DNA of 44,203 bases from a virus. Numbering within the stretch: position 1 is the stretch's first letter; each line of letters opens with the position of its first letter. Shown here piece by piece: positions 1,710-41,916 of the stretch. The notes under the pieces are model-generated. The model made no database searches. It saw only the letters and a program-made list of their open reading frames with translations, and was not told where the DNA came from. The position numbers and the translations under genes were made by a program. Location: IMG/VR virus record IMGVR_UViG_3300031753_000301, positions 1 through 44,203 of that record; one strand, written 5' to 3'.

Positions 1710-1960
1710 CGGGAAACTCCGAAGAGGCTGGCCTTCGCTTCGAGCCTTCCGCGAATGTCTTCGAGCCGGTCCGCGATGTTCAGAACTTCCTGCATGTGTT
1801 CGGCGTTCAGCTCCACGCTGGCGGCCGCCGCTTCGCGCACCCAAGCGAGCGTGGCCGAGCGCGCGGACTTCAGATATCTGGCGGCCTCCCCCAGTTTCTC
1901 GCCGGTCACGATTCCCGCCCGCGCGGCTGACGTCTCCACTGCCGTCGCTGCTCTGGTCAT
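1706..1960 (-). CDS. Small helical hypothetical protein (84 aa)
   Basis: An alanine- and glutamate-rich protein predicted to be mostly helical (EKLGEAARYLKSARSATLAW, then NAEHMQEVLNIADRLEDIRG). The ATG at 1960 has AGGAGG five bases upstream. That ribosome-binding site lies in the 3' flank of palindrome copy 3. The start overlaps the integrase stop (ATGA). Function unknown. Confidence 0.65.
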   Translation of the reverse strand: MTRAATAVETSAARAGIVTGEKLGEAARYLKSARSATLAWVREAAAASVELNAEHMQEVLNIADRLEDIRGRLEAKASLFGVSR

Positions 1961-3180
1961 GCGATCCTCCTGACCATTCGCACCGAGCGGCCCTTGCCGG
2001 GACCCTCGGCGCGTTCCTGTTTCATTTTCGCGGGCGTCGCGGCGGCTGGACCATTGGCGCCAAGCTGCCCTTGCCGGGACACGTTGGCGCCTACTAATTT
2101 CTCGATCGCGGCCTTGCCATGCTCCGGAGAAAGATGCGCGTAACGCATCGTCGTCACAATCGTGGTGTGCCCGAGGAATTGCTGCACGGTGCGGAGGTCC
2201 ACCCCGGCCATCACCAATCTCGAGGCAAATGTGTGACGCAGATCGTGCCAGCGGAAATTCACGACGCCGGCTTTCGCGGTGATTGCGCGGAAGCGGTCGG
2301 AGCGGCGATCCTCCGGAGAATCCGTGCGGTAGCAGACGTAGGCCGAGCCGTTCGATTGCTCGTGAAGCTGCAGGAGCGCCGCGCGGCACGCGGAATTGAT
2401 GGGAATGAAACGCCGGCCGGTCTTCCCTTCCTTCGGCACGGTGAGGATGCCGCGCTCGAGGTCGATCAGATCCCAGGTGAGCAGGAACTGTTCGCCGGAG
2501 CGCAGGCCGGTGTTCAGCGCCAGGTCCATTTCCGCTTCGATTCCCGCCAAGCTGCCGCCGGGACACGTTGGCGCGTCCACGTCCGGGTTCGAATCGCGCA
2601 TGCCCGCGCGGATCGCGGCTTCCTCGTCCGCCGTCAGATAGCGGATGATCGGGGGATTGTTTTCGAACGTGCGCGTCTCCGCGACGGGATTTTTGGCGCA
2701 GTATCCGTTGGCGATCCCGTAAGCGAAAATGCTGTTGAGAAGCGCGCGGTAATTGTTCAGCGTGGGCCCGCTGAGCTCGAGGGCCAGGCTGGCGGAGGGG
2801 CAGCGGCCGGGCGCCGGCTTGCGCGTGCGCAGGCTGCGAAGCACTTCATTGATTTTCGCGGTCCCGATGGCCGCGGCCGGCAGGCTGCCGATGAGCGGGA
2901 AGAGGCGCGAAAGAGACGTGCGATTGCCGTAAGAAGTTTTTCGCCGGCAATGGCCTTCCTTGTCGGCCAGCATGCGCTCCGCGAGCTGCTGGAAGGTGAC
3001 GCGCTGTTCGCGCTTCGGAGCGACGTAGCGCCCCTCGCGAATCTCGCGTTTCTTGTTGACGTAAGCCTCGATGGCCACGGATTGCCGGCCGACGTGTTCG
3101 CGGTGACGATGCCCGTCGGAATCCACGTAGCAGATGTACCAGTCGTTCGAGCCTTTGACCTTTTCGTAGATTCCTCTCAT
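1957..3180 (-). CDS. int: Tyrosine recombinase / integrase with embedded palindromes (407 aa)
   Basis: Site-specific tyrosine recombinase for lysogenic integration and excision. An N-terminal arm-binding-like region and a core-binding domain (about residues 60-170) precede the catalytic domain. The visible catalytic set is R227 (NTGLRSGE), K253, H312 and R315 (WHDLRHTF), H338 (LGHT) and Y347 (RYAHLSPEH), so it looks intact. Three palindromic elements are read through: one in frame at about residues 202-214, just before the R227 helix (2543-2575), and two after the catalytic domain, giving a 43-residue tail. The ATG at 3180 has AAGGGAAGGGAA upstream. It lies in an operon with the gene at 3205-3429. 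A nearby attP cannot be identified from sequence alone. Confidence 0.93.
   Translation of the reverse strand: MRGIYEKVKGSNDWYICYVDSDGHRHREHVGRQSVAIEAYVNKKREIREGRYVAPKREQRVTFQQLAERMLADKEGHCRRKTSYGNRTSLSRLFPLIGSLPAAAIGTAKINEVLRSLRTRKPAPGRCPSASLALELSGPTLNNYRALLNSIFAYGIANGYCAKNPVAETRTFENNPPIIRYLTADEEAAIRAGMRDSNPDVDAPTCPGGSLAGIEAEMDLALNTGLRSGEQFLLTWDLIDLERGILTVPKEGKTGRRFIPINSACRAALLQLHEQSNGSAYVCYRTDSPEDRRSDRFRAITAKAGVVNFRWHDLRHTFASRLVMAGVDLRTVQQFLGHTTIVTTMRYAHLSPEHGKAAIEKLVGANVSRQGQLGANGPAAATPAKMKQERAEGPGKGRSVRMVRRIA
1979..2013 (-). repeat. Palindromic element family 1, copy 3
   Basis: 35 nt variant with arms CGCACCGAG/CTCGGCGCG. The inner arm bases changed on both sides (CAA/TTG to CGAG/CTCG), leaving one mismatch. 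It encodes part of the integrase tail and is followed by the ribosome-binding site of the gene 1706-1960. Confidence 0.8.
2056..2091 (-). repeat. Palindromic element family 1, copy 4
   Basis: 36 nt, arms GGCGCCAA/TTGGCGCC. The outermost C-G pair of the consensus is replaced by G-C on both arms. It encodes ANVSRQGQLGANG directly after the integrase catalytic domain. Confidence 0.85.
2543..2575 (-). repeat. Palindromic element family 1, copy 5 (inside integrase)
   Basis: 33 nt copy with a 3-nt core deletion that keeps frame. It lies between integrase residues DSNPDV and AEMDLALNTG. Confidence 0.85.
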
Positions 3181-8141: not shown

Positions 8142-8855
8142 TCAGTTCTCGCGCTCGACCAGGGAGAGCCGGCGCTTCGCGGCTTCGAGCGCGATGAAGC
8201 GAGGCATGGGAAGTTTGTCGCGCATCGTGCCGATGCGGAGAATCATCAACCCGAGAAAATCGCGGTCCTCGGGCTTCGGCGGGAGGTTGTGCTCGAGGCG
8301 CATGATGATTTCCTCGAACCGATAGATATCCATCCCCGCGGCCTTGGCGAGCGAGCGCACGCCGATATCGGTATCTTCGTAAGCGGGGAAGGTCACGACG
8401 CTGACGTCCATGAGGTCCACGTCGATCAGGTCGCGAATCGTTTCTCCGTCCTGCATGTGCCAATTATCGGTGACGGTGCGGAAGCGGAAGCTGCCCTGGG
8501 TGATGTCGCCGCGATCGATGGAAGTCATCAGGTCGCGCGCCACCTGGGTGTCCGGAGGATCGATCTCCATGCGCAGGCCGACGCTCGTCTCGCTGAGCCG
8601 CATGGTGCCGGCTTTGTTCCGGCCGAGCACCATGTCGGGATTGTGGTTGAGCAGGCCGCGGACGTCCGCGCCCTCCGCGAGCGTGCGCTTGAACGCGCCG
8701 GGCAGGATCTGCTCGCGCATCCCCCACATCCGCTGGCTGAGTTTATTGAATTTGGCGGGATAGCCGGTGATAAGGGTGGGCTTTCCGTCGCGCTTCTCGA
8801 CGCGAAATTCGCCGGTGAAATCCGTTGCGTTCAGAAACCTGTGTTCGAGTTCCAT
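8142..8855 (-). CDS. HK97-family prohead protease (237 aa)
   Basis: Processes capsid and scaffold during head maturation (peptidase family U35). The family signature is visible: GYPAKFNKLSQ, LPGAFKRTL, LLNHNPDMVLGR with H71, DITQGSFRF with S122, and DLMDVSVVTFPAY. Length is normal. AGGAGG lies about 5 nt before the ATG. It follows portal and two small genes. Unusually, the capsid gene is not next downstream but at 44203, reached only through the early region if the genome is circular. Confidence 0.93.
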   Translation of the reverse strand: MELEHRFLNATDFTGEFRVEKRDGKPTLITGYPAKFNKLSQRMWGMREQILPGAFKRTLAEGADVRGLLNHNPDMVLGRNKAGTMRLSETSVGLRMEIDPPDTQVARDLMTSIDRGDITQGSFRFRTVTDNWHMQDGETIRDLIDVDLMDVSVVTFPAYEDTDIGVRSLAKAAGMDIYRFEEIIMRLEHNLPPKPEDRDFLGLMILRIGTMRDKLPMPRFIALEAAKRRLSLVEREN

Positions 8856-8875
8856 GCGTTCCTCCTAAGATTTCG

Positions 8876-9043
8876 CTATTCCATCGCGCATTCCAGGCAA
8901 GGTTGGCAAACCTCGCAGTATCCGTGCTGGCATGTCACGCCTTCTCCGCAGAACCCGCATCTTCTGTTCGGGGTCTGTTTGCAATCGTCCACTTCCCCGC
9001 TCCGATGGCTCTCGGCTTCCTGCCGGTCGAACTTATCCCTCAC
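8876..9043 (-). CDS. Mini cysteine-rich protein (55 aa)
   Basis: The GTG start overlaps the previous stop (GTGA). The second half has eight cysteines in CGFCGEGVTCQHGYCEVCQP and CLEC, suggesting one or two zinc sites. It lies between a secreted protein and the prohead protease. Role unknown. Confidence 0.6.
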   Translation of the reverse strand: MRDKFDRQEAESHRSGEVDDCKQTPNRRCGFCGEGVTCQHGYCEVCQPCLECAME

Positions 9044-9444
9044 CGGTCCCGCCACTGGATCCCGATGATCGCGAGGATTCTGTCGTCCTCGCCTGGCGCC
9101 GGCGGCCCGCAGTTCAGCATCTGTTCGTGCACGTTGAACCCCTCGATATCGCCGTTCGCTGCGATTTTTTGCATCGGGGTGATTTCGAGAAACGGACGGC
9201 AATGCACCAGCTCGCCGATCGTCAGCACGCGGGACCCGCTCTTCGATTGCACGCCGATGGCGATGGGAATCGTCGGCAGGAAAATCGCGACATGCTCCCC
9301 GGTCGCGAGCGTGAGCTGCTGCTGGTAGAGAAGCTGCTGCGGGGACACGTTGGCGCGTTCATCCGGCGGCGCCGGCGCCGCGATCGCGGCCAGGGCCGCG
9401 CCGAGCCCCAGCATGATCAGAATCAGCCAGGCGCGGTTACGCAT
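9040..9444 (-). CDS. Secreted hypothetical protein with decayed palindrome (134 aa)
   Basis: An N-terminal signal-like segment (RNRAWLILIMLGLGAALAAI) is followed by PAPPDERANVSPQQLL. ANVS and the following residues derive from palindrome copy 8. The mature part is beta-rich (HVAIFLPTIPIAIGV, RILAIIGIQW). The start overlaps the end of the portal gene by 8 nt. Function unknown. An exported protein between portal and protease is unusual. Confidence 0.6.
   Translation of the reverse strand: MRNRAWLILIMLGLGAALAAIAAPAPPDERANVSPQQLLYQQQLTLATGEHVAIFLPTIPIAIGVQSKSGSRVLTIGELVHCRPFLEITPMQKIAANGDIEGFNVHEQMLNCGPPAPGEDDRILAIIGIQWRDR
9331..9357 (-). repeat. Palindromic element family 1, copy 8 (half copy)
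   Basis: 27 nt with an intact right arm (TTGGCGCG) and part of the core. The left outer arm is lost. It lies in frame just after the signal segment of the gene 9040-9444. Confidence 0.65.
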
Positions 9445-11383
9445 TGTCCACCGCGACGATCTGGCATTCGCAGCGCGGGCCGGAAGGCGGATGGTTTCCC
9501 GCGGCCGGATCGTGGAGCCGCCTGGCGATCGAAGTACATTCCGAACTGCAACCCGTTTCCGGGAGGATCCACGCCAGCGTTTTCGCGCCGGCGGTTTTAT
9601 AGATGTTCAACGCGAACGCGTTGGAAGCCCGCATGGCCTCTTCATGGGCGCGATCGGCGATCCCGTTGGCCCAGGTGCCCGCCTTGGTGATGTGCTGGAC
9701 CAGCGCTTCCTTGACGTAGCGGTGCGCGAAATTGTCCGCGTAGCTCTCGACGAATTTTTCACGCTCCACCGGCGGGGCCTCGCGCCCTTCCACCCGGAGA
9801 AGCGTCGAAACGGATTCCTCGATGCAGGCGAGCACCGGAGCCAGGCCGTCCCGCACGTAGGGGAGATGATCGCGGAAGAAATTATCCGGATCGGCGCCGG
9901 AGCGCGATAGCGCGGCGACTTCCTTGCGGGAGAATCGTTCGCCGAGGTTGCCGAGCAGCGGGATGAAGGCATGGGCCACCTGGCGGCGGCGCTCGGCGAG
10001 CTCCTGGGCATGCTTGCGTTTGGCCTTGGGGTCGCTTATGGGAGGCGGAGGATTCTTTGGCGTCCCAGGAGGCAAAGGCTTCCCGTCCGGGCCTATGGTG
10101 GCCGCGGGAGGCGGTTCTGGGGGGTTTATAGCCCTGTCCAACGATTGTTGGGTCACCGGGATGAAGTAAACCTTGCCCTGGCCGTCCGGCAGGGGGTTCA
10201 TGTTCTCGCGCTGGCGGACCTCGTCGATGGATAAGTCGCCGTTCTTCTGCATCAGGTCGTAGAACTTCGCCCGGCTCTCGGGATCCCCGCGCATGGCGCC
10301 TTCGAGGTTGAACTCCGAATAGAACGTCTTTCCCGCCGGCATGGTCGGCTTGATCAGTTTTCTGAAGATCTCCTGCTCGGCGGCTTCCGCCCAGGGCAGC
10401 ACCCCGCCCTTGACGTATTCGATCTCCTGATCCTCGATGTTCGAAAACGTGGCGTGCGTCAGCTCGGCGAGCTTGTGGAGCGGGACGTGGTACATTCTGG
10501 AAACTTCCGAAAGCTGAAACACGCGCGTCATGAGATATTGCGCGTCCTCATTCGACATCGAGATCTCGGTAAACTTCAGGCCCTGTTCGAGCACCGCGAT
10601 GCGGTGCGCCTGGTCGCCGCCGCGGTGCGCTTCCTCCCAGGATTCCTTCAGGCGCTTCGTCGCCTTGGCGTCCAGCTTCGCGGGAGTCTCGAGCACGCCG
10701 CCCGGGCGCGCATCATTGCCGAAGAAGCGCGCGCCGTAATCGGTCGCAGCCATGGAAAGCCCCAGGCTCTCGCGATGCAGCGCGATCGGCGAAAGCCCGC
10801 GCAGCCCATCGTAGCTATAGCCCATGACGTGCAGGACCTGGTCAGGGCGCAAAATAATTTCCGGGCCCGCGCTCGAGCGCGCCACATAGATCAAATCCCC
10901 GGTGGAATGCCCGGCCTTGTCGGTCATGCGCCGCGGGAACGTGCGGTCCGGGCGCAGCGGCCAGATGGCTTGCACTTCGCCGTTGCCTTTGCGCTCGATC
11001 TCGCCGTAGAAATTTCCCCAACAGAGAATGTGGCCCATCAGCGTTTTCCAGAACGTGAAGGCGGTCATCTCGTCGTTCGGCTGATCGTGCAGGATGGGAT
11101 AAAGCGGATGCTCGTCGGCTTCGCGCCGGCCGGCGTCATTCGGAAGTTTTTCGAACATGCAAAGCGGCGACGTCGCGATCGAATTGGAGATCAGCCCGAC
11201 GGCGCACCATACGGCGGAGAGCTGCATCGCCGTGCGCTCCGTCATGGTCTGGCCGGAAGCCGTCGGATGCCCGCCGGCATATTCGACCAGCCAGCGGTCG
11301 GGTTCGGAAAGATTCGACCGCAGCTCGAGGCTGAAGGGGTTCCAGGTGGCGCGGATCCCGTATTTGCCGGCCGTCAGAATCAT
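9437..11383 (-). CDS. Portal protein with C-terminal MuF-like domain (648 aa)
   Basis: HK97-type portal through which DNA enters the head. Typical portal segments are NSIATSPLCMFEK, HPLYPILHDQPN, WGNFYGEIER, LRPDQVLHVMGYS and GLRGLSPI. The usual portal length ends near residue 430. A proline-rich linker follows, then a helical region of about 200 residues closing with GCSSECTSIARR and HPPSGPRCECQIVAV. That closing pattern is like the C-terminal cysteine/histidine motif of Mu gpF-type minor head proteins. The MuF assignment is inference. The start overlaps the upstream stop (ATGA). Confidence 0.9.
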   Translation of the reverse strand: MILTAGKYGIRATWNPFSLELRSNLSEPDRWLVEYAGGHPTASGQTMTERTAMQLSAVWCAVGLISNSIATSPLCMFEKLPNDAGRREADEHPLYPILHDQPNDEMTAFTFWKTLMGHILCWGNFYGEIERKGNGEVQAIWPLRPDRTFPRRMTDKAGHSTGDLIYVARSSAGPEIILRPDQVLHVMGYSYDGLRGLSPIALHRESLGLSMAATDYGARFFGNDARPGGVLETPAKLDAKATKRLKESWEEAHRGGDQAHRIAVLEQGLKFTEISMSNEDAQYLMTRVFQLSEVSRMYHVPLHKLAELTHATFSNIEDQEIEYVKGGVLPWAEAAEQEIFRKLIKPTMPAGKTFYSEFNLEGAMRGDPESRAKFYDLMQKNGDLSIDEVRQRENMNPLPDGQGKVYFIPVTQQSLDRAINPPEPPPAATIGPDGKPLPPGTPKNPPPPISDPKAKRKHAQELAERRRQVAHAFIPLLGNLGERFSRKEVAALSRSGADPDNFFRDHLPYVRDGLAPVLACIEESVSTLLRVEGREAPPVEREKFVESYADNFAHRYVKEALVQHITKAGTWANGIADRAHEEAMRASNAFALNIYKTAGAKTLAWILPETGCSSECTSIARRLHDPAAGNHPPSGPRCECQIVAVDNA

Positions 11384-26050: not shown

Positions 26051-29000
26051 TCAGAACAGATGGTTGCGGCCGCCGCCGGATCCCGGTGGATCCACGCTCG
26101 CACCGCCGCCGCCGACGGCGGTCGTGATCTTCCCGAAATAAACTCGCCCGTTCGCCGCGTAGACGTCCGATTCGTTCGCGCTCGCGATGTAGGTCACGGC
26201 TCCGCCGACATAGGTCGGGTCGTCGGCGTAGATAAAAAATGTCCCGTAGGCGCCCGGCGTCACCGATCCGCTGTTGTAGGCGACGGTTCCGTCGCCAAAC
26301 TGGATCGTCGATCCGGCGATCAAAATTGTTTTCGAGGTGCCCGACTGCGTGACTGCGGCGCCGCCCGTGGAATGCCCGCTCGTATTGATCGGGGTCAAAT
26401 CGAAAGCCGTCGCCTGCAGCACCATCATCAAATCGTCGAATTGAATGTCGGCGCAGAGTCCGTTCGGAGTGGAGATGGCCGAGCCCGTATTGTTCTGCAC
26501 GTACGCGTTGCATTCCACGCGCACGTAGGAAACGGCGGAAAGAGCAACCTGCACCGAGGCCTGGAGCAACGTGTAGGCTCCGTTCTGGGCATTCAGGGCC
26601 TGCGCCAGCAATTCGGTCAGCAGCGTGTCCGTGGCGTCATAGAGCAGCAGCCCGATCTGGCAGTAGATCGTGAGCCCCGCGGGAATCGCGATGTTGCTGT
26701 CCCATCGGAAATATCCCTGAACGCGAACGATGTCCCCGTTCCGGATCGGAATTTTTCGCGATGCGACCGTGCATCGGTATTGGGGGCTCGTCGCCGGAAT
26801 CGAAATGTTTGAATTCACGCGGATCTCGGCGTTGCCCGCGCCAGATCGCGGAGTGCCATTTTTGTAAAAGACGGCGAAGAGCGCGCCGCCTGGGGTCTGC
26901 TTGCTGATCACCGTCCAGCCATCGCTGACCGTCCCATTCAGCGCTATGTCCGTCGCCACGGGAGTTCCGCCGGTATTGAATTCGAAACCCGGATTGGGGC
27001 ACATATTCTTTCCGTGGCTGCCGGGGCGCCCATAGGTGATGCCATCGCCGAGAGTGTCGATCGTCACCGCCGTCCCGTTCGCGGTGACGCTGCCCGTGAC
27101 GGCCGCGCTGTTCACCCCGGCATGGTTCTGCGCCCACATCTGAATGTCGTATTGAATGCCATCGAGGATCGGTCCGATCTGCGCGGTCGTGATGTCGCCG
27201 GGCCGCTTGCCGTGATCCGTCCAAAGCGCATCGGTATGCTTCTTGTACTGGATGATGATGTGCCCGCCCTTGAGGACGAACTGATCCGCCGGCGCGGTCC
27301 ATGCGAGCGCGATGAAATTCGTCCGGATCCCGTCCGCGGTGCGCACGATTTCCGACGCGCTGACCATGACGGCCGTCGGAGGCTGGCAGACCAGGTTGCT
27401 CGGCAGGATTGTCGTCGGCGGCGCGTTGATTGCGACCTCGTCGGCCGTCGTCCAGTCGTAAATCGTCGAATCCGCTTCGCGCAGCGTCAGGTCCACCCCG
27501 ACCGCCATCGCGCCTGCGCTGTCCGCGCCATAGATCAATGTGCAGCCCGTCACTTCGAATGTTTTATTCACCCATCCGAATCGCGGATGCGAAAACTGGA
27601 TCACGTCCAGCGCCTGCGCCTGGTAGGCCGTCAGCTTGAATTGAGCCTGGATGCTCGTTTGCCGGCGCGCGCGGCGCAGCGCGATTTTCGAAAGCCTCTG
27701 CGCGGTCGCGCCGGATGTCGTGAACGGCAATTCCACGTCCAGCCAAAGCGGCTCATTGTTGTCTTCGAGCAGATAAGCGGGCGATTGAAACGGAGGATAA
27801 TCGGAGATCTGCCAGTTGTTCAGCGCCGAAATATACGTTCCCTTCACGCCGTTGTAGAGATCGCGATGAGGCATGCGCGTTTGCACGGTCATCGGCCCGC
27901 GCAGATCGGAATCGGTCAGGCTGATCGTCGGCGCGCGCCAGATCCCGGGAAAAATTCCCCAAAGCCCGGCGATGTAAGCGGCCGAGCCGGCGATCGCCGA
28001 ATTCATTCTGCCGACGACGGCCGCCGGCGCTTCGCTGGTATCGAAACTCCCGTTGATCGTGAAGCGCGGCTCCGTCCCGCCGGCGAGGATGTTCACGGCC
28101 TCGTCCGAAGTGTTGGCGGCGGAGATGAGCTGCACGGAATCGACATCGCTGGTATAAAACTCCAGCTCGTTCACGAACCCCGCTTCGGTGATCGTGGCGT
28201 CCGCCTTGATCCGCCAGTAGCGGTGCGCGCCGTTTGGCGCGAGCTCCACGTCGTTCCACCCGATGATGTCCGGCAGGAACGCCGCCGCGGCCGTCGTCCA
28301 GGTGGAATTGTTGTCGGAAAATTGAACGTCGTAGGTCTGCACCTGGCCGGTGACGCTCAGGTACATCCGGCAGCGGCGAAACTCCGCGGTGACGCCGGCG
28401 CCGAGATCGAGCGAAACCGTCGAGCCGATGTTCGTCGTGTTATTGCTCCAGCCATTCGTCGTGGTGTCGCCATCGACGAGCTGCGCGGCGTTGAATCCGG
28501 AAAATCCGGAATTCGTCAGCATCGCCGCGGTGACCGCATATTTTGTCTGCGCGACCAGGCCGAATGCCGAATTGTTCAGGTAATCCGCGATGCAAAGGGC
28601 GGCATTGTTGCTGTATGCAATCGTTCCCGTTCGCGGGTCGTAAACTTTCCTGCCCTGCACGTCGAAGGTGATGTTCGGCACGCCGTTCGGAAATTTGTTC
28701 ACGTCCCAGGTGAGCGCGACGTAAGCGCCGGCGCACCCGCGCTGGCGATGCGCGGAGGTCCAGAACGCCGGCGCGGCCGCGACCAGGCCGGGGAAAGAAG
28801 CCTGCCCGCGCGTGCCGAGATTGAATTCCGCGTGCACGAATCCCGCGAAATTTCCCGTGGCGTTTCCGCTGCCATCGAGCGGCACTGCCACGCCGTCGAA
28901 ATACATCGTGCCGATGGAGAAGAGTTCATGTCCGGCGAGCGTGATCACGATATGCAGCTTTTCGTTGTTTGTTCCGGTTGTGTGCAGGAAGGTGATGATC

Positions 29001-29254
29001 CCGCCGAGGCGGCCGACGCCGTATTGCACGCGCCGCGGCGCGATGGCCTGGCGGCTCGTGACGGTGCGGCTCGCGATCTGCGTGGCCAGCGAGGAGCTTG
29101 TCGGCCGGCTGCTGTTCGCGAACATTTTGCTGATCTCGCCCAGGACCAGGCTGACGCCAAGCGAGAGAATCATCGGGGCGAGGACGCCGGCGACCGCGGC
29201 GCTGATGCCGATCGCTTCGATGACGAAAACGATGGCGGCAATGATAGGAGGCAT
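26051..29254 (-). CDS. Tail hub / host-specificity fibre protein (1067 aa)
   Basis: Large tail-tip protein in the position of lambda J / GTA hub. The N-terminus is hydrophobic, then RRVQYGVGRLGGIITFLHTT and HELFSIGTMYFDG typify J-like proteins. A discoidin-like module (LVDGDTTTNGWSNN, YDVQFSDNNSTWTTA, HRYWRIKADATITEAGFVNE) lies around residues 235-365. J-type core segments follow (RRARRQTSIQAQFKLTAYQA). Then comes a fibronectin-III-like unit (IALAWTAPADQFVLKGGHII) and a glycine-rich end. Discoidin and FN3 modules suggest binding to surface sugars. Gene order with 29259-33817 supports the tail-tip role. Confidence 0.82.
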   Translation of the reverse strand: MPPIIAAIVFVIEAIGISAAVAGVLAPMILSLGVSLVLGEISKMFANSSRPTSSSLATQIASRTVTSRQAIAPRRVQYGVGRLGGIITFLHTTGTNNEKLHIVITLAGHELFSIGTMYFDGVAVPLDGSGNATGNFAGFVHAEFNLGTRGQASFPGLVAAAPAFWTSAHRQRGCAGAYVALTWDVNKFPNGVPNITFDVQGRKVYDPRTGTIAYSNNAALCIADYLNNSAFGLVAQTKYAVTAAMLTNSGFSGFNAAQLVDGDTTTNGWSNNTTNIGSTVSLDLGAGVTAEFRRCRMYLSVTGQVQTYDVQFSDNNSTWTTAAAAFLPDIIGWNDVELAPNGAHRYWRIKADATITEAGFVNELEFYTSDVDSVQLISAANTSDEAVNILAGGTEPRFTINGSFDTSEAPAAVVGRMNSAIAGSAAYIAGLWGIFPGIWRAPTISLTDSDLRGPMTVQTRMPHRDLYNGVKGTYISALNNWQISDYPPFQSPAYLLEDNNEPLWLDVELPFTTSGATAQRLSKIALRRARRQTSIQAQFKLTAYQAQALDVIQFSHPRFGWVNKTFEVTGCTLIYGADSAGAMAVGVDLTLREADSTIYDWTTADEVAINAPPTTILPSNLVCQPPTAVMVSASEIVRTADGIRTNFIALAWTAPADQFVLKGGHIIIQYKKHTDALWTDHGKRPGDITTAQIGPILDGIQYDIQMWAQNHAGVNSAAVTGSVTANGTAVTIDTLGDGITYGRPGSHGKNMCPNPGFEFNTGGTPVATDIALNGTVSDGWTVISKQTPGGALFAVFYKNGTPRSGAGNAEIRVNSNISIPATSPQYRCTVASRKIPIRNGDIVRVQGYFRWDSNIAIPAGLTIYCQIGLLLYDATDTLLTELLAQALNAQNGAYTLLQASVQVALSAVSYVRVECNAYVQNNTGSAISTPNGLCADIQFDDLMMVLQATAFDLTPINTSGHSTGGAAVTQSGTSKTILIAGSTIQFGDGTVAYNSGSVTPGAYGTFFIYADDPTYVGGAVTYIASANESDVYAANGRVYFGKITTAVGGGGASVDPPGSGGGRNHLF

Positions 29255-34717: not shown

Positions 34718-34741
34718 TGCTAGCTTGCTAGCTTGCTAGCT
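34718..34741. repeat. Tandem 8-bp repeat GCTAGCTT
   Basis: Three to four units of GCTAGCTT directly at the stop codon of the tail tube gene 34740-35372. Probably a slippage product. Confidence 0.7.
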
Positions 34742-35372
34742 AGAACAGGACCGGCTTCGAAGTGATTTTCATCGTGCCGCTCACGACGATGCGATCGTCC
34801 ACCGGATAGGCAGGATTCAGCGCGCTCACATAGCCCGTGAACGTCCAGATGCCCGTGCCGGCCAGCGGCAATGCCACGCACCAGTTCGAAAGCACCGCGC
34901 TTTCGAAATCCGTGCGCAGCGTCACCTGCGAGTTCGTCGCTTCCTTCGGGATGTAGTTCCCCTCGAAAGTGATGTCGCCGCCCTCGCGGAGCCCGGCGAT
35001 GAATTCCTTGTAAGTGTTCGGCGAGCCCATGTTGGAGGCTTCCTTCATGTCCGCCTTCATTCCCGGACCGCCAATCTTGAAAATTTCGAGGACCGGAACC
35101 ATCAGCGCGATGTTGATGTTCGTGCCGTGGCTGTTGTTGAAAATCGCGGAGAATGTCGGCCCCGGCGCCGCGGAGACTTCCACGACTTCGGTCAGAGCCG
35201 GGTTTCCCGTGTCGATCGCCAGCAGCGTGCCGACGACGATCGAGGTCATCGATGCCGGCGTCACCGCCTGCGGCGAGGCGTTCGCCGTGATGGCCAGCGC
35301 GATGGTGGTCAGCGTCGCGGCGCGGCGTCCGAGAACGCATCCATATCCAATCTGTGCTTGTGAGACGGGCAT
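34740..35372 (-). CDS. Tail tube protein, long paralogue (210 aa)
   Basis: Shares with the gene 35439-35843 the segment GGPGMKADMKE, SPNTYKEF-AGLREGGD, TFEGNYIPK, TLRTDFE and NPAYPVDDRIVVSGT. It has about 76 extra residues near the N-terminus (TLTTIALAITANASPQAVTP to NINIALMVPV), probably a separate small domain on the tube surface. Leader: stem GCCGGC...GCCGGC with a short loop, then AAGGAGCAAGAG. Confidence 0.8.
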   Translation of the reverse strand: MPVSQAQIGYGCVLGRRAATLTTIALAITANASPQAVTPASMTSIVVGTLLAIDTGNPALTEVVEVSAAPGPTFSAIFNNSHGTNINIALMVPVLEIFKIGGPGMKADMKEASNMGSPNTYKEFIAGLREGGDITFEGNYIPKEATNSQVTLRTDFESAVLSNWCVALPLAGTGIWTFTGYVSALNPAYPVDDRIVVSGTMKITSKPVLF

Positions 35373-35438: not shown

Positions 35439-35843
35439 TTACGACAGGACTGGCTTGCCGGTGATCTTCAGCGTGCCGCTTACGACGATGCGATCGTCGA
35501 CCGGGTAGGCCGGATTGATCGCCGAGACCATCGCGGTGAACGTCCAGGTGCCGAGCGCATTCGGCAGCACGATCGTCCAGCTCGATTGCGTCCCGTTTTC
35601 GAAATCGGTGCGCAGCGTGATCTGTGTCGCATCCTTCGGGATGTAGTTCCCCTCGAAGGTGACGTCGCCGCCTTCGCGCAGCCCGGCGACGAATTCCTTG
35701 TAGGTGTTCGGCGAGAGCATGTTGGAAACTTCCTTCATGTCCGCCTTCATTCCCGGACCGCCGAGCTTGATGATCTCGAGGACCGTGACGCCGGCGCGCT
35801 GCAGAAGCGTTCCGTATCCGACAACTGCTTGAGAGACAGCCAT
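35439..35843 (-). CDS. Tail tube protein, short paralogue (134 aa)
   Basis: Same family as the neighbouring 210-aa protein: EIIKLGGPGMKADMKEVSNM, EGNYIPKDATQITLRTDFEN and PAYPVDDRIVVSGTLKITGK. Length and composition fit a tail tube subunit forming stacked hexamers. Leader hairpin CCGC...GCGG followed by AAAGGAGCAACAC, closely like that of its paralogue. Which paralogue builds the main tube is not known. Confidence 0.8.
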   Translation of the reverse strand: MAVSQAVVGYGTLLQRAGVTVLEIIKLGGPGMKADMKEVSNMLSPNTYKEFVAGLREGGDVTFEGNYIPKDATQITLRTDFENGTQSSWTIVLPNALGTWTFTAMVSAINPAYPVDDRIVVSGTLKITGKPVLS

Positions 35844-36362: not shown

Positions 36363-36914
36363 TCATTGCCGGTGCAGCTCCCGCGCCGCCGCCTGGATTC
36401 CCGCTTCGAGCTTTTGCGAGATGATGGCCAGCGCGCGATACTTCTCGCCGTCAAACGCCGGCCGCATGAACGGGTGCGCGGCGATCTGCGTCACGCCCTT
36501 CGCGTTCCAGCCGAACTCGATCAGCCGGCCATACCAGACGTCCGGATGCAGCCCGACCTTGCCGTGCACCCAGGAGCCGGCCGTGCTCTTCGAGCCGGTC
36601 CGCATCTGCTTCTTGATTCCATCCTGCAAATGCATGCCTTCTTTTTTCTCCGGGTCGTAGGGCGCGAGCTCGATGGCCCGCTGGCGAAATGCTTCCGTCG
36701 CTTCGGTCATCGCCTCGACCATGCTTTTCTTCGCGACCTTTTCGGGGAGCTGCGTGAGCGCGGCTTCGAGCTCCGCCAGGCCGACGACTTTCACGGTGAT
36801 GGTTGTCCCGTTGCCGGCGTGGCTTCCGGCGATGATCCGTTGCAGGTTCTGATCGACGCCGAAGCGACCGATCATTTGCGAAAGCGTTCCGCTCAGATCC
36901 GCGAGGCCGGGCAT
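36363..36914 (-). CDS. HK97 gp10-like head-tail protein (183 aa)
   Basis: VVGLAELEAALTQLPEKVAK, then MVEAMTEATEAFRQRAIELA, VWYGRLIEFGWNA and AHPFMRPAFDGEKYRALAII match the HK97 gp10 tail component family. Start 36914 overlaps the previous stop as TAATG. The family acts at the head-tail interface during tail assembly. Confidence 0.85.
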   Translation of the reverse strand: MPGLADLSGTLSQMIGRFGVDQNLQRIIAGSHAGNGTTITVKVVGLAELEAALTQLPEKVAKKSMVEAMTEATEAFRQRAIELAPYDPEKKEGMHLQDGIKKQMRTGSKSTAGSWVHGKVGLHPDVWYGRLIEFGWNAKGVTQIAAHPFMRPAFDGEKYRALAIISQKLEAGIQAAARELHRQ

Positions 36915-37273
36915 TACAGGACCGCTCCTTGTCTTTCCTTCGCGATCAGCTCGAGCTCGAAATTGCGTTCGTCGCGGTTGTTCACCGCCTGCACGTCGAA
37001 GACGCGCGTGCCGTAGAGGATCTGGTCCTTGGGGCAGAGATCCGCGATGCGCGAATCCCATCGCAGATGGAAGCGGGTGTAATCGAGCCCGATCAGCTGG
37101 TTGCCGGACCATTCCTCACGGCCGGCGCGGGCCGAGCCGACGTAGGGCTCGATCCAGCACCAGGTCTGCGCCAGCGTGTTCCAGGTGAAGGTCTCCCCTC
37201 CGGTCGTATCCACGGCGCCCGTCTGCCGCTGGATCGTGCAAAGGTGCCGGAATTTTCCCGCGCGCAGCGCCAT
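36914..37273 (-). CDS. Head-tail adaptor/stopper, SPP1 gp16-like (119 aa)
   Basis: RAGKFRHLCTIQRQTGAVDT, then TWNTLAQTWCWIEPYVGSAR, GREEWSGNQLIGLDYTRFHL and YGTRVFDVQAVNNRDERNFE fit the head closure family. TAATG overlaps on both sides. The protein seals the head after packaging and connects the tail. Confidence 0.85.
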   Translation of the reverse strand: MALRAGKFRHLCTIQRQTGAVDTTGGETFTWNTLAQTWCWIEPYVGSARAGREEWSGNQLIGLDYTRFHLRWDSRIADLCPKDQILYGTRVFDVQAVNNRDERNFELELIAKERQGAVL

Positions 37274-37623
37274 TACGTTGTGCTCCGCATGACTACGCGC
37301 GCCGGAATTTCCCAATGCCCGGGGCCGCCGGGCGCGCCGGCCATGTCGACTTTCAAGACATAGCCGCCGGCGATCGGCGGATTGAAGGTGCCGCCAAGCG
37401 GCGCGCGATAAAGTCCAGTCGAGGCGGCCACATAGGCGAAGATGATCCCGTTGAATCCGGGCACGACCGTGCCCGTCGAGTCGTAAAGCGAAGCAGTGCC
37501 CGTCAGCGAATTGAGATATGTCGGCGGCGTGACGTTGTCCGTCGTGCCGTCGATGACCGGGCCCCATTCGAGGTATTGGCCATTGATGCCGGCGAAAAAT
37601 GTGAATGTGACCGGGATGCTCAT
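37273..37623 (-). CDS. Hypothetical virion-type protein (116 aa)
   Basis: Beta-rich sequence (IPVTFTFFAGINGQYLEWGP, GTASLYDSTGTVVPGFNGII, GGYVLKVDMAGAPGGPGHWE). It resembles small Ig-like proteins carried between head-tail genes. Start ATG 37623 overlaps the previous stop (TGATG). Not recognised further. Confidence 0.6.
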   Translation of the reverse strand: MSIPVTFTFFAGINGQYLEWGPVIDGTTDNVTPPTYLNSLTGTASLYDSTGTVVPGFNGIIFAYVAASTGLYRAPLGGTFNPPIAGGYVLKVDMAGAPGGPGHWEIPARVVMRSTT

Positions 37624-39563
37624 CAGCAGCACACCACTCGCGCGGCCTGAGATTCCATCGCGGGGATCATCCGCGCGGACAGTGCTTCCATCGCGGGCGC
37701 GAGCTCCGGAGCGATGGCTTCCATCGCGAAACGCACTTGTCCCGATTGTGATTCCATGGCCGGCGCGACTTCGGCGATTTGCGCTTCCATCGCCAGGATC
37801 ACTCGCGCGAAGAGCGCGCAGATGGTCGGGCCGAGTCCGGCCGAGACAGGCGCATTGACGAATTCATCGAGGAAGAGCAGCAGAGAGAGTCCGGCCGCGA
37901 CGTTGGACTGAATGGATTGCTCGTCGTCCCAGGCCTGCGCCGGCAGCGGAGGCTTTCCGCTGAAATCCGAAGCGTCGATCTGGAAAAATGTCGGGCTCGA
38001 GGAAGTCGTTTTCAGATCGTCTTCGAATGCCAGGGGAGGCAGCGGCGCCGTCGTCGTCCAATCGTCCTCGATCGCCGGTGAGAGCCAGCCGCGCCAGCTA
38101 TGCTGCTCGTCGTCCTGAATCGAAGCCGGCGGAAGCGGAGGAACCGGCGGCAGCGTGGATCCGTCATCCTCAAACGCGGGCGCGGCTGTGCTCGTCCATT
38201 TCTCGCTGACCTCTTCCGTGATTGCGAACGGGGGAACCGGCGGCCGCGCGGTCCAGTCATCTTCGATCGCCGGCGAAAACCAGTTGAATGTTCGCTCGCT
38301 AATTTCATCCTGCTGCGCCAGGGGCGGCGGCAACGCCACCGTGAAGACATCGTCCTCGTGATAGCTGCTCACGCGGTCGTAGGCTTTGACATGCGCTTCG
38401 ATGTCGTCCAGGCCGATGTTCGGCGCCGCTTGCGCGACGATGGGCTTGCCCGGCTGGTCTTCTTCGATGAATGGCGTGAAGAGTCCAGTGAACCGTTCGC
38501 TGATTTCGTCCTGGACCGCGAAGGGCGGCGTCGGCGGCAGGCTGCGATGCGTGTCGGTGTCTTCGAACTGAATCGCCGACCAGCTGCAATTCTTTTCATC
38601 TTGGTGCTCGTCCTGAATGGCGAAGGGCGGCGTCGGCGGCAGGCTGCGATGCGTGTCCGTGTCTTCGTATTGCCGAGCGCGCCAATCCACGAAAATTTGC
38701 TCGGTGAATTCTTCCTGAATGGAGACCGGCGGAATCGGCGGCAGCGCCCTTTGTGTTTCCGGATCCTCGTGGAGAAGCGCGCGCCAATCGCACCAGCGCA
38801 TGCTCTGGCCGTCATCTTCGAAGGCGAAGGGTGGCCGCGGCGGCAGGATCCCGAAGCTCTCGGCTAGCTCCTGCTGGTGCTGCGATTCCATTCGCGTCGA
38901 CTGCGTGAAGCGCTGAGCCTGGATATCCGTGTCGTCTGGAGCAGCCGCGACCGCTTTGAAAGTCGCGACCAGGGCGATGTATTGCTGACTGGTTGAGTCC
39001 ACCCAGGTTCCGGAGATCGCGCCCTTGGATGTCTGCGTCGCCCATTCATCGAAGAGCAGCGTCGTAGTTGCGCTATCGATGAGAGCGAGGCCCGCGCCTT
39101 GCGTCGGCGTGTCCGTGCCCATGCTCACCGCCGCGAAAATCAGTTCGCCGTCGACGGTCGTGGTCACGCTGCCACTGGTGGGATTCGTGCCGGAGGTTTG
39201 CTGGCCGGTATTTTGATCGAGTGGACTGACCCCTACCACGCCGCTAAAACCGGCCGCGACGATCGCGCCGAATTGCTCTGTTGTCCCCAGGGTCGCGGTG
39301 ATGACCGGACTTCCCGCTGCGCTCTTCGGAAAGAAGAAGAGCTGCGCGCATTGGTTCATCGTGGCATTGCGGATGACCGCGCCAATCGGAGTCCACGCCC
39401 CGTTGAGAGAATCGGATACCGAAATGGTGGGCGAAGAAGCGTTTCCGGCGCTGACCGCGCAGACGAGCAGGTCGCCGGCGGCGACGCCCGAGAGCGTTAC
39501 GACGACAGTCGTCGAAGTGGGGGAGCCATTGTCATGGACGGCATGTTTGTCGAGCGCAATCAA
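37623..39563 (-). CDS. Proline-rich acidic repeat protein (646 aa)
   Basis: Three parts are visible. Residues 1-210 form a beta-rich, alanine/serine/threonine-rich domain (VVVTLSGVAAGDLLVCAVSA) like many virion add-on domains. Residues about 235-575 hold roughly nine degenerate repeats of 30-45 residues with the pattern LPPxPPFAxQDE, an aromatic/W-containing stretch and an ED pair. Two neighbouring repeats are nearly identical in DNA (38519-38565 and 38622-38668). The end (about 590-640) has short helical repeats of the type AMESQ-A-V-P. It lies between head-tail genes. Probably virion associated. No family recognised. Confidence 0.7.
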   Translation of the reverse strand: MIALDKHAVHDNGSPTSTTVVVTLSGVAAGDLLVCAVSAGNASSPTISVSDSLNGAWTPIGAVIRNATMNQCAQLFFFPKSAAGSPVITATLGTTEQFGAIVAAGFSGVVGVSPLDQNTGQQTSGTNPTSGSVTTTVDGELIFAAVSMGTDTPTQGAGLALIDSATTTLLFDEWATQTSKGAISGTWVDSTSQQYIALVATFKAVAAAPDDTDIQAQRFTQSTRMESQHQQELAESFGILPPRPPFAFEDDGQSMRWCDWRALLHEDPETQRALPPIPPVSIQEEFTEQIFVDWRARQYEDTDTHRSLPPTPPFAIQDEHQDEKNCSWSAIQFEDTDTHRSLPPTPPFAVQDEISERFTGLFTPFIEEDQPGKPIVAQAAPNIGLDDIEAHVKAYDRVSSYHEDDVFTVALPPPLAQQDEISERTFNWFSPAIEDDWTARPPVPPFAITEEVSEKWTSTAAPAFEDDGSTLPPVPPLPPASIQDDEQHSWRGWLSPAIEDDWTTTAPLPPLAFEDDLKTTSSSPTFFQIDASDFSGKPPLPAQAWDDEQSIQSNVAAGLSLLLFLDEFVNAPVSAGLGPTICALFARVILAMEAQIAEVAPAMESQSGQVRFAMEAIAPELAPAMEALSARMIPAMESQAARVVCC

Positions 39564-39574
39564 ATTTCCTCACT

Positions 39575-40291
39575 TCATTCGAAAACGATGGAACTGCTCT
39601 GTATCCCGGTGGGCACGCCCGCGACTTTGATGAGAATCGCCGAGGCCTTCACCTGGGTGAGACCGGGGTAGAGCAGATGGATCAGCGGGCCTTCCAGGAA
39701 GTAATAAGACTGAATCGCGCAGCTGGTGGCGCATGGAGGCAGGGTGAAATCTGCGCGATACCATAGCGTCGGATCGAACGCGAATGAGCCGCTTGCGTTG
39801 CCGGCCGCATCCGGCACCAGCTGTAGGATCGCGGTGGTGATGGTCGTGCCGTCAGGATTCACGACGACTTTGCTGATCACCAGCTGAGCGGGGGGGATCG
39901 TGCCGTCGGTGTAGCTGACGGCGATGGTGGTCGTGATCGTGGGGAGCGGCGGGGGCGGGGGCGTGACCGTCAGCACCGCTTTGTTTGAAAACAGTTTTGC
40001 GGAGCCGCCGGTGCAACCATAGAGCTCAACCTGCACCGTGGTGCCATTTTGCGCGGCGGTGACGTTCGCGATCGAGTAGGAAAAGCTCGAGGCGACGGCG
40101 CCGTAATGAAGGACACCATTTACATACCATGCGCTGCGGCAAGGTCCGCCGCCGACGGTGACGGTGAACGTAGCCGTCTGGCCCGCAACGACAGACTGAT
40201 TTTGCGGCTGCTGCGTGATGCTTTGCGCGCGCAGGGATGCGGGGACGGCGGCGAGCAGAAGCAATGCGAACAGCCTCATGATGTTCTTCAA
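39575..40291 (-). CDS. Secreted Ig-like protein in the head module (238 aa)
   Basis: A signal peptide (MRLFALLLLAAVPASLRAQS) is followed by an Ig-like domain (SITQQPQNQSVVAGQTATFT, SAWYVNGVLHYGA, SIANVTAAQNGTTVQVELYG), a proline stretch (PPPPP) and a second beta-rich domain. The TTG at 40291 has GGAGG 6 nt upstream; ATG 40279 is the alternative. A Sec signal is unexpected in virion genes, so the product may act on the host surface of infected or lysogenic cells. Confidence 0.7.
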   Translation of the reverse strand: MKNIMRLFALLLLAAVPASLRAQSITQQPQNQSVVAGQTATFTVTVGGGPCRSAWYVNGVLHYGAVASSFSYSIANVTAAQNGTTVQVELYGCTGGSAKLFSNKAVLTVTPPPPPLPTITTTIAVSYTDGTIPPAQLVISKVVVNPDGTTITTAILQLVPDAAGNASGSFAFDPTLWYRADFTLPPCATSCAIQSYYFLEGPLIHLLYPGLTQVKASAILIKVAGVPTGIQSSSIVFE

Positions 40292-40385
40292 AGCATTCCT
40301 CCAAAACAAATCGAAACGGCCGGGCGCCGCCAGATCTGCGCGCGCCCGGCCTGCTCGAATCTCCGCTTCACCGGAGCTCATCGAA

Positions 40386-40420
40386 CGCGCAAAGGCTCCC
40401 GGCAAGGGGCGCTTTGCGCG
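40386..40420 (+). repeat. Palindromic element family 1, copy 16
   Basis: 35 nt, arms CGCGCAAAG/CTTTGCGCG, a perfect 9-bp stem differing from consensus on both arms. It lies 6 nt behind the stop of 40427-40891. Confidence 0.88.
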
Positions 40421-40426
40421 AACGGA

Positions 40427-40891
40427 CTACTCGGAGTGCGAGAGCGCGACGTCCACCGGGACGGCCACGCTTCCGGACTGCGCCGAATCCACGACGATCT
40501 CCGCGTTCGAGGCCGTTGCGCCCGAGAACGATTTCGCTTCGTCCTCGACCGTCGCGAACCAGAGGCCGGTCCCGCGCGAGTTGAACGCGAGCTGCGCGGC
40601 GAATACGGCCGCCAAAGTTCCCCCGGTCGGGAGCGACGTCGGCAGCGCCGCGGCCGCGGGGCCTTCGGTCAAGCCCTTCGAAGGCACGATCGCGGTGCCC
40701 GCTGTGCAAAGCACCGTCGTGCGCGCGAGCATGATGCGCACCTGCACGTCGACGGCGTTCGCGTTCGGGCCGCACTGCAGGCGGCGGACGTATCCGCGCA
40801 GCCCGGCGATCCCGACGATGTTCAGCAAATGGACTTTTGTGCCAGCGACGGCGCTGGTGGACTGCTCAGTTGTGGTGTCGAACCAAAGCAT
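40427..40891 (-). CDS. Virion-type hypothetical protein (154 aa)
   Basis: Alanine-, threonine- and glycine-rich beta protein (KVHLLNIVGIAGLRGYVRRL, NAVDVQVRIMLARTTVLCTA, GTLAAVFAAQLAFNSRGTGL). Composition is like capsid decoration or fibre proteins. The start overlaps the previous gene by 70 nt. Not recognised. Confidence 0.6.
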   Translation of the reverse strand: MLWFDTTTEQSTSAVAGTKVHLLNIVGIAGLRGYVRRLQCGPNANAVDVQVRIMLARTTVLCTAGTAIVPSKGLTEGPAAAALPTSLPTGGTLAAVFAAQLAFNSRGTGLWFATVEDEAKSFSGATASNAEIVVDSAQSGSVAVPVDVALSHSE

Positions 40892-41223
40892 GATGGGTTG
40901 TCTCCTCGGGCGTCTGCAGGGGCAGGCGCCTTTTCTGGCTTGTAGCCGAAAGCGTCAAAAAGCTCGGTGGGGATTTTGTCGAAGGGAAGATCCCCGTACT
41001 TCGCGATGATGTCGTGATCGCAGGGATCGCACGTCACGACGATGTGCTCCGGAGCAGCGAAGGCGTAGGAATCCTTGCTGATCCAGCCCGCCGGCGCGCC
41101 GCAGAGGAAGCAATACGCGCGCTGAAATCTCCCGCTCGTGTCGCTGACGATGATCTGCGTGTTGCGGCTGTCGGCGTCCTTCAGTAGTTTTGTCTGCTCC
41201 ATCTTTTTTATGCGCGCCTGCAA
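40822..41223 (-). CDS. Zinc-motif hypothetical protein (133 aa)
   Basis: RNTQIIVSDTSGRFQRAYCF, then CGAPAGWISKD and VTCDPCDHDIIAKYGDLPFD give two cysteine pairs. The C-terminal 30 residues overlap the next gene and may be unconstrained. TTG 41223 or ATG 41202 starts it. Similar small proteins occur in phages, function unknown. Confidence 0.6.
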   Translation of the reverse strand: MQARIKKMEQTKLLKDADSRNTQIIVSDTSGRFQRAYCFLCGAPAGWISKDSYAFAAPEHIVVTCDPCDHDIIAKYGDLPFDKIPTELFDAFGYKPEKAPAPADARGDNPSCFGSTPQLSSPPAPSLAQKSIC

Positions 41224-41238
41224 TTACAGGCGACTCCT

Positions 41239-41916
41239 CTAAGGAATTTCGTATACCCTGTCGGCCCACAGCAGCTGCTCGAATCCTGGCACCGCGAAGC
41301 TCATCTTCTCGGAGTTGGCCTCGCGGTTTTCATAGAGCTGGCCGATCAAAAGCTTCATGGTGTGCTTGACCGTTTCCGGGACGGCCGCGGCCGTCGCGCC
41401 GTATCCCGCCACGTATAGGACCTGGACCGCCGATTGCTGCGCGAGCGTGATGGCCCAGGGCAAGTTGTTCGCCGGCGCGATCCGCGCGGGCTCCGAATCC
41501 GTGTCCACGATGTAGCCCGGCAGGCCCGGCGCCGGATTTTGCGCCAGCGTTTGCAGCACGCCGTTCGAATCCAGGTATTTGATCGAGGTCACCGAAATGC
41601 ACGGCGAGCGGAATAGCCGAAGCGGGCCGCTCATCAGCGAGATCGCGCGAGCCAGGTAGGACTCCACGGAATAGGTCGGGATGAAAAATTTCAGCGTGGC
41701 GTTCGGCAGGTCCGGGAAGGCGTCGCACTGCATCCTGAAGGTTGTCTGGATGAAGGCGCGGTTCTGGACTTTTTCGAGGTACTGGCGCGCGGTGGTGATC
41801 AGGCCGTCGATGTAGGCGTCGTCATCCGTTCCGGTGACGCGCAGGTGGAGTTTCGCTTCATCGCGGGTGATAGGCTCTGATTGTGGGGGAGTCACGGTGA
41901 CAAGCGAATAAGACAT
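41239..41916 (-). CDS. Head-tail connector, gp6-like (225 aa)
   Basis: PITRDEAKLHLRVTGTDDDA, then IDGLITTARQYLEKVQNRAF is the signature of the phage gp6-like / phiE125 gp8 head-tail connector family. The C-terminal half has VKHTMKLLIGQLYENREANS and ends in a LLWADRVYEIP-type motif. It forms a ring under the portal. Normal length and position after capsid. Confidence 0.88.
   Translation of the reverse strand: MSYSLVTVTPPQSEPITRDEAKLHLRVTGTDDDAYIDGLITTARQYLEKVQNRAFIQTTFRMQCDAFPDLPNATLKFFIPTYSVESYLARAISLMSGPLRLFRSPCISVTSIKYLDSNGVLQTLAQNPAPGLPGYIVDTDSEPARIAPANNLPWAITLAQQSAVQVLYVAGYGATAAAVPETVKHTMKLLIGQLYENREANSEKMSFAVPGFEQLLWADRVYEIP

Follow-up and report, generated by a model that had tools for sequence, protein, structure and literature searches.

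A proline-rich acidic repeat protein, probably an accessory virion fibre, encoded in an exchangeable cassette among the connector genes of a soil-type phage

What does a long, acidic, proline-rich repeat protein do among the head and connector genes of a tailed phage? In this work we focused on P0001, a 646-residue protein encoded at positions 37623-39563 (minus strand) of a virus contig of 44,203 nucleotides, hereafter called the window. The window carries genes for an integrase, terminase, portal, head protease, HK97-type capsid protein, the head-tail adaptor Ad1, the head closure protein Hc1, tail tube proteins in tandem and a tape measure. Ad1 (41239-41916; PHROG 40/442, Pfam Phage_connect_1) and Hc1 (36914-37276; Pfam Phage_HCP, E 5e-19, PHROG 25) border a slot with five genes, all on the same minus strand: an open reading frame for a small CxxC-containing protein (40822-41223), another for a 154-residue protein without a family match above cutoff (40427-40891), an Ig-like protein (39575-40405, probable start about 40279), P0001 and a small protein named g3 (37273-37623). 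The Ig-like protein begins with the signal peptide MRLFALLLLAAVPASLRAQ; its Pfam Ig_3 match (E 4e-4) is below cutoff, and its PHROG matches are to tail and Hoc-like proteins. Apart from these, a tail-tip protein that has an F5/8-type domain is encoded at 26051-29254. The two tail tube genes lie at 34740-35372 and 35439-35843 (minus strand), and contig L093 likewise gives two tandem matches. Because the record ends (44203) exactly at the capsid start codon, whereas the genes for protease and portal are found at 8142-11383 and that for the integrase at 1957-3180, it may have been cut or be a circular permutation.

P0001 is a real gene. Its frame runs for 646 codons from a TTG start with no internal stop, a GAGG ribosome-binding-like sequence lies upstream of the start, and the GC content at the three codon positions (0.63/0.50/0.74) follows a coding-type pattern. 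No signal peptide was detected by a simple rule. The composition of the product changes along its length: T, A, S and G are abundant in residues 1-205, residues 206-545 contain 13% P and 18% D+E with a net charge of -42, and residues 546-646 contain 21% A. Between residues 240 and 545 (37929-38846) we found about nine repeats of 30-34 residues of the form LPPxPPFAxQDE...W...EDD, with nine PP-type motifs starting near residues 240, 274, 308, 342, 411, 441, 471, 508 and 537. TRF gave a period of 102 bp over this region, and the highest off-diagonal self-score of residues 206-545 was 246 at an offset of 34, whereas none of 200 shuffles exceeded 58. The C-terminal 101 residues scored 89 at an offset of 11 (shuffle maximum 38), and in the array at residues 588-646 (37626-37802) AME recurs at residues 591, 602, 613, 624 and 635, which makes five exact 11-residue repeats. 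The original prediction, which had described about nine acidic proline-rich repeats and an AMExQ array behind a beta domain, is thus borne out, the repeats lying far beyond chance. It had also pointed to two repeats almost identical in DNA and taken them as a sign of recent expansion. The near-identity holds for 15 codons (EDTDTHRSLPPTPPF), encoding residues 300-314 (38622-38666) and 334-348 (38520-38564), where 44 of the 45 bases are the same and beyond which the flanks of both units have diverged. Since the DNA diverges outside the 45-bp stretch, only this short block is recent, which speaks for duplication on a local scale, or for gene conversion, and not for a recent expansion of the whole array.

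The AlphaFold model, built from a shallow alignment, contains a predicted linker helix at residues 211-236 (38856-38933; pLDDT about 80 at its core), after which most of residues 244-540 are predicted to be unstructured or extended, with a pLDDT of about 30. The helices predicted for the C-terminal array reach a pLDDT of about 60, so that its supposed helical nature is uncertain. Searches with P0001 in Pfam, PHROGs, NCBIfam, PDB sequences and sequenced phages gave no match, and no full-length relative was found in viral_contigs, the phage collection or PDB sequences. Among PHROG minor tail and tail fibre profiles there was likewise no match, the only hit being phrog_9391 (E 0.63), whose function is unknown. 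Profile searches of Pfam, PHROGs and NCBIfam yielded no known fibre family with this repeat, whose sequence is an orphan.

The N-terminal domain (residues 1-205, 38949-39563) has left clearer traces. AlphaFold predicts a beta-sandwich, best over residues 1-110 (shallow alignment), and the domain is homologous to regions of large secreted Chloroflexota proteins (E down to 2e-9, 32% identity) with FN3-like and LamG-like sequence around the matched region. Phage homologues are encoded in four contigs. Those in L193 and L194 were found by way of the Chloroflexota sequences, and a profile from verified homologues then matched proteins of L003 (E 5e-14) and L112 (E 1e-11), neither of which had been included in it; this profile took the place of an iterated HMM started from the window sequence alone, which had wandered into antisense ORFs and was dropped. 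In L194 the domain is followed by 22-residue tandem repeats and is encoded between the capsid gene and the Hc1/neck genes, and in L193 it is followed by a poly-serine run and encoded after the capsid and glycosyltransferase genes. In both contigs the capsid gene is separated from the gene of the N-domain repeat protein by glycosyltransferase-type genes (L193:3976-7550 and L194:5352-7159), in L193 together with a gene judged by eye to be sulfotransferase-like, an arrangement suggesting that the Ser-rich or repeat stalk is glycosylated. Foldseek searches of viral models gave matches to many proteins of uncultured phages, the best with E 4e-10. Mycobacteriophage minor tail proteins also matched, among them those of Hawkeye (E 1e-6) and Tweety (E 2e-6), at a probability of 1.00, a likeness of fold only; sequence profiles did not support the Hawkeye gp35 domain as a homologue. 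Against PDB folds the domain matched many sandwiches at Z 6-8, none of them decisive, and P0001 has no Pfam Ig match. Overall, the N-domain looks adhesin-like.

The start codon of g3 overlaps the stop codon of P0001 as TGATG. The g3 product is a small predicted beta-sandwich protein (AlphaFold pLDDT 79) with homologues in L006, L158 and G354, a genome of the G008 phylum, to which a conserved-motif scan added further loci; no match was found in 151 genomes of the G005 phylum. The members of the family that were tested are not recognised by Pfam, NCBIfam or PHROGs models, and g3 has no match among PDB sequences. Its VIA matches, including Douge, T5/DT57C and NF5 baseplate proteins, have Z values of 6-7, within the stated noise range of the tool, and were rejected. 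In G354 the homologue (L164:1084-1851) is part of a fusion with a predicted coiled coil and a hydrophobic segment at the C-terminus, and its gene adjoins a predicted M15 peptidase gene.

A tandem-repeat protein, as defined by a self-score threshold chosen in this analysis, is encoded directly upstream of g3 in 7 of 11 readable loci, a small set found partly through the motif search, as compared with 73 of 2063 background genes (3.5%) from related phage contigs (Fisher p 3e-8). The repeats themselves differ in length: 34 residues in the window, 36 in L006, 23 in L158, about 24 in G354, 20 in L179 and 21 in L182. The window and L006 repeats share LPP motifs, but their profile score did not rise above column shuffles, and homology between them was rejected. 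The C-terminal 75 residues of the proteins preceding g3 show a short period above the 99% shuffle level in six of the nine tested. This period is 11 in P0001 and elsewhere 10-12, or 21 in L179 (about twice 10.5), and occurs in L006, L164, L179, L182 and L187. The AMExQ array is the window's version of this short-period C-terminus, and P0001 thus combines the two features by which we define the g3-linked cassette, namely a tandem-repeat protein upstream of g3 and a short-period C-terminal array. Several of the repeat proteins upstream of g3 are PHROG minor tail proteins or lie within tail-fibre regions. In the L158 and L179 cassettes they have GIxSxEAFG-type repeats as in mycobacteriophage minor tail proteins; these sister cassettes contain PHROG minor tail (families 13352 and 8501) and tail fibre proteins, the latter in L158, and have a PHROG 644 type neighbour in common with Hawkeye gp36. 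In G354 the trio of a 308-residue protein, the repeat protein and g3 stands between tail-fibre-type genes and the predicted M15 peptidase gene. The view that no phage family has the architecture of P0001 is therefore correct for the repeat sequence, but a beta-sandwich with tandem repeats and a small beta protein recurs in unrelated phages.

The slot itself is variable. Among the 82 loci in which both the Ad1 and Hc1 profiles match (81 distinct, L168 repeating L158), the gap between the two genes is shorter than 400 bp in 73 and at least 1 kb in seven. The module is exchanged between phages that share 75-88% of the capsid protein: in L004 (capsid protein 75% identical) the slot has about 250 bp and no P0001-type gene, and in L002 (88%) and L003 (79%) it holds other small genes. 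L003 has a relative of the N-domain at the equivalent place, only about 20% identical to that of the window although Ad1 is 81% identical. Other slots contain proteins of 801 and 635 residues, each carrying a signal peptide, alongside smaller predicted ones (L093), a protein with a tail-tube-like domain at its start followed by 42-residue tandem repeats and a DUF6242 match (L136, 5661-6953), a repeat protein similar to the latter (L140), and a 388-residue protein with a LamG-type domain by reading of its sequence (L015). We conclude that the slot is a cassette site. Elsewhere the cassette stands upstream of the terminase genes, as in L006, or between those for terminase and portal, or next to tail-fibre and lysis genes. 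P0001 had been assigned to a head-tail module, which is right with respect to its position between Ad1 and Hc1; since the cassette also occurs elsewhere, position alone does not make P0001 a part of the head-tail joint.

The closest known counterparts agree with P0001 only in part. Mycobacteriophage minor tail proteins with GIxSxEAFG repeats (Hawkeye gp35; PHROG 553, 13352, 2106, 8501) also combine tandem repeats with a beta-sandwich that matches the N-domain in Foldseek. However, P0001 has no profile match to them, its repeats are 34 residues long, proline-rich and acidic, and the order is reversed, the domain coming before the repeats, whereas in Hawkeye gp35 GIPSAEAFG repeats precede a C-terminal domain. 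Genes of the gp35 type lie beside lysis genes, whereas P0001 is encoded between Ad1 and Hc1 and not after tail tip genes. In Tweety gp54, Che8 gp57 and PMC gp51, in-frame repeat expansion is known, and these genes, absent from the close relative Llij, are presumed non-essential (PMC2884959), but their repeats are AAxx tetrapeptides, no beta-sandwich has been reported for them and they are not in a connector slot. The secreted Chloroflexota proteins are homologous across the whole N-domain but are bacterial, mostly about 1000-2000 residues long, with FN3- and LamG-like domains and no proline-rich repeats.

Of the three roles originally considered, flexible fibre, binding scaffold and decoration anchor, the fibre is the best supported, through the predicted unstructured repeats, the adhesin-like N-domain and the PHROG minor tail and tail fibre proteins of like cassettes. 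We propose, with a probability of about 0.62, that P0001 serves a soil-type phage as an accessory fibre of the virion, or adhesin, and is carried in an exchangeable cassette. This reading draws on the homology of the N-domain to secreted Chloroflexota modules with FN3- and LamG-like neighbours, its combination with repeats between capsid and connector genes in L194 and with poly-Ser after the capsid gene in L193, and its fold matches to mycobacteriophage minor tail proteins. The g3 linkage, the fibre-type contents of the sister cassettes and neighbours of the G354 trio, and the fusion of a tail-tube domain to repeats in L136 point in the same direction. So do the absence of the cassette in L004, its replacement in L002, L003 and L093 and its different place in L006, in a slot that is usually shorter than 400 bp, and the coupling of P0001 to g3 with no internal sigma-70-type promoter found (host promoters may differ) and terminator-like sites at chance level. 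Against it stand the lack of a sequence match of P0001 to annotated tail or fibre families, of profile support for the Hawkeye gp35 fold match and of profile similarity to the L006 repeats. Because the sequence test failed for all known tail and fibre families, we do not file P0001 in any of them; it is fibre- and adhesin-like by architecture and gene company.

P0001 could instead be a decoration of the head or neck, anchored on the capsid or connector and acting like Hoc, pb10, head fibres or neck whiskers, with no part in the tail. T4 Hoc, T5 pb10, phi29 gp8.5 and SPP1 gp12 are encoded in head regions, as is P0001, and share with it the proposed role of an accessory, surface-exposed adhesin, but P0001 has no match to these families, and its N-domain was not recognised as having an Ig, coiled-coil or collagen-like fold. 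Decoration proteins are known that help in binding carbohydrate (PMC7602432). In the window, L158, L179, L182, L193, L194 and L006 the cassette has head and connector genes around it, and the Ig-like neighbour has Hoc-like matches; given the tail-fibre and lysis surroundings in G354, the tail-tube domain in L136 and the minor tail assignments of related repeat proteins, we regard this as rather unlikely. Another candidate for P0001 is a proline-rich glue or scaffold running along the capsid or neck and organising other proteins, for which PRD1 P30, proline-rich and extended as are the predicted unstructured P0001 repeats, would be the precedent (PMC7602432). L004, a close relative whose capsid and connectors are the same, has no such cassette; the cassette is thus not needed for assembly, which makes such a role very improbable. 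To our knowledge PRD1 P30 has no large adhesin-like domain, which we also count against it.

Signal peptides are unusual on virion proteins, and their occurrence on the adjacent Ig-like protein and on proteins of the equivalent cassettes in L003 and L093 speaks against the fibre. They are also found on the products of three genes after the tape measure in L112. On the neighbouring cassette proteins they are the strongest point for a moron-type cassette, in which a lysogen would make surface or secreted proteins that alter the host surface and are not parts of the virion. The integrase of the window phage and the bacterial secreted relatives of the N-domain would fit this as well. P0001 itself, however, lacks a detected signal peptide, is packed tightly on the same strand within a structural block and overlaps g3; no sigma-70-type promoter was found, and terminator-like sites stood at chance level. 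We therefore consider a lysogenic function improbable.

As an accessory fibre, P0001 would carry its N-terminal beta-sandwich as the business end, an adhesion domain that probably binds carbohydrate. There are precedents for phages binding surface glycans by add-on domains of this sort, in decoration proteins (PMC7602432) and in mycobacteriophage Douge (PMC13033339). The proline-rich acidic repeats would form an extended, largely unstructured, charge-repelling stalk holding this domain away from the particle, and the length of the stalk could change through repeat duplication. The C-terminal 11-residue array, translationally coupled with g3, may serve as the oligomerisation or attachment end. 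We infer that P0001 would be incorporated into the virion, attached through its C-terminus and g3, with a carbohydrate as ligand and a seat on the tail, neck or head. The cassette would then equip the phage with a second means of adsorption, additional to the normal tail tip and dispensable. A wider and more tentative proposal, which we hold at less than even odds, is that in tailed phages g3 and the repeat fibre upstream of it make up an exchangeable module for adsorption that has not been described before. It could be borne on the neck or head as a second apparatus for binding hosts or surfaces, in which g3 would be the conserved anchor ring or tip and the stalk would be freely replaced by unrelated repeats.

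Many phages carry proteins of this kind, although the exact stalk sequence of P0001 is new. The g3 protein, which in the members tested is not recognised by library models, is in unrelated phages often encoded after a fibre protein of repeat type and offers a sequence handle for fibre genes that are too variable in sequence to recognise. For the biology of these phages, the findings lead to a testable claim: soil-type siphophages would carry adsorption cassettes within their block of head and connector genes.
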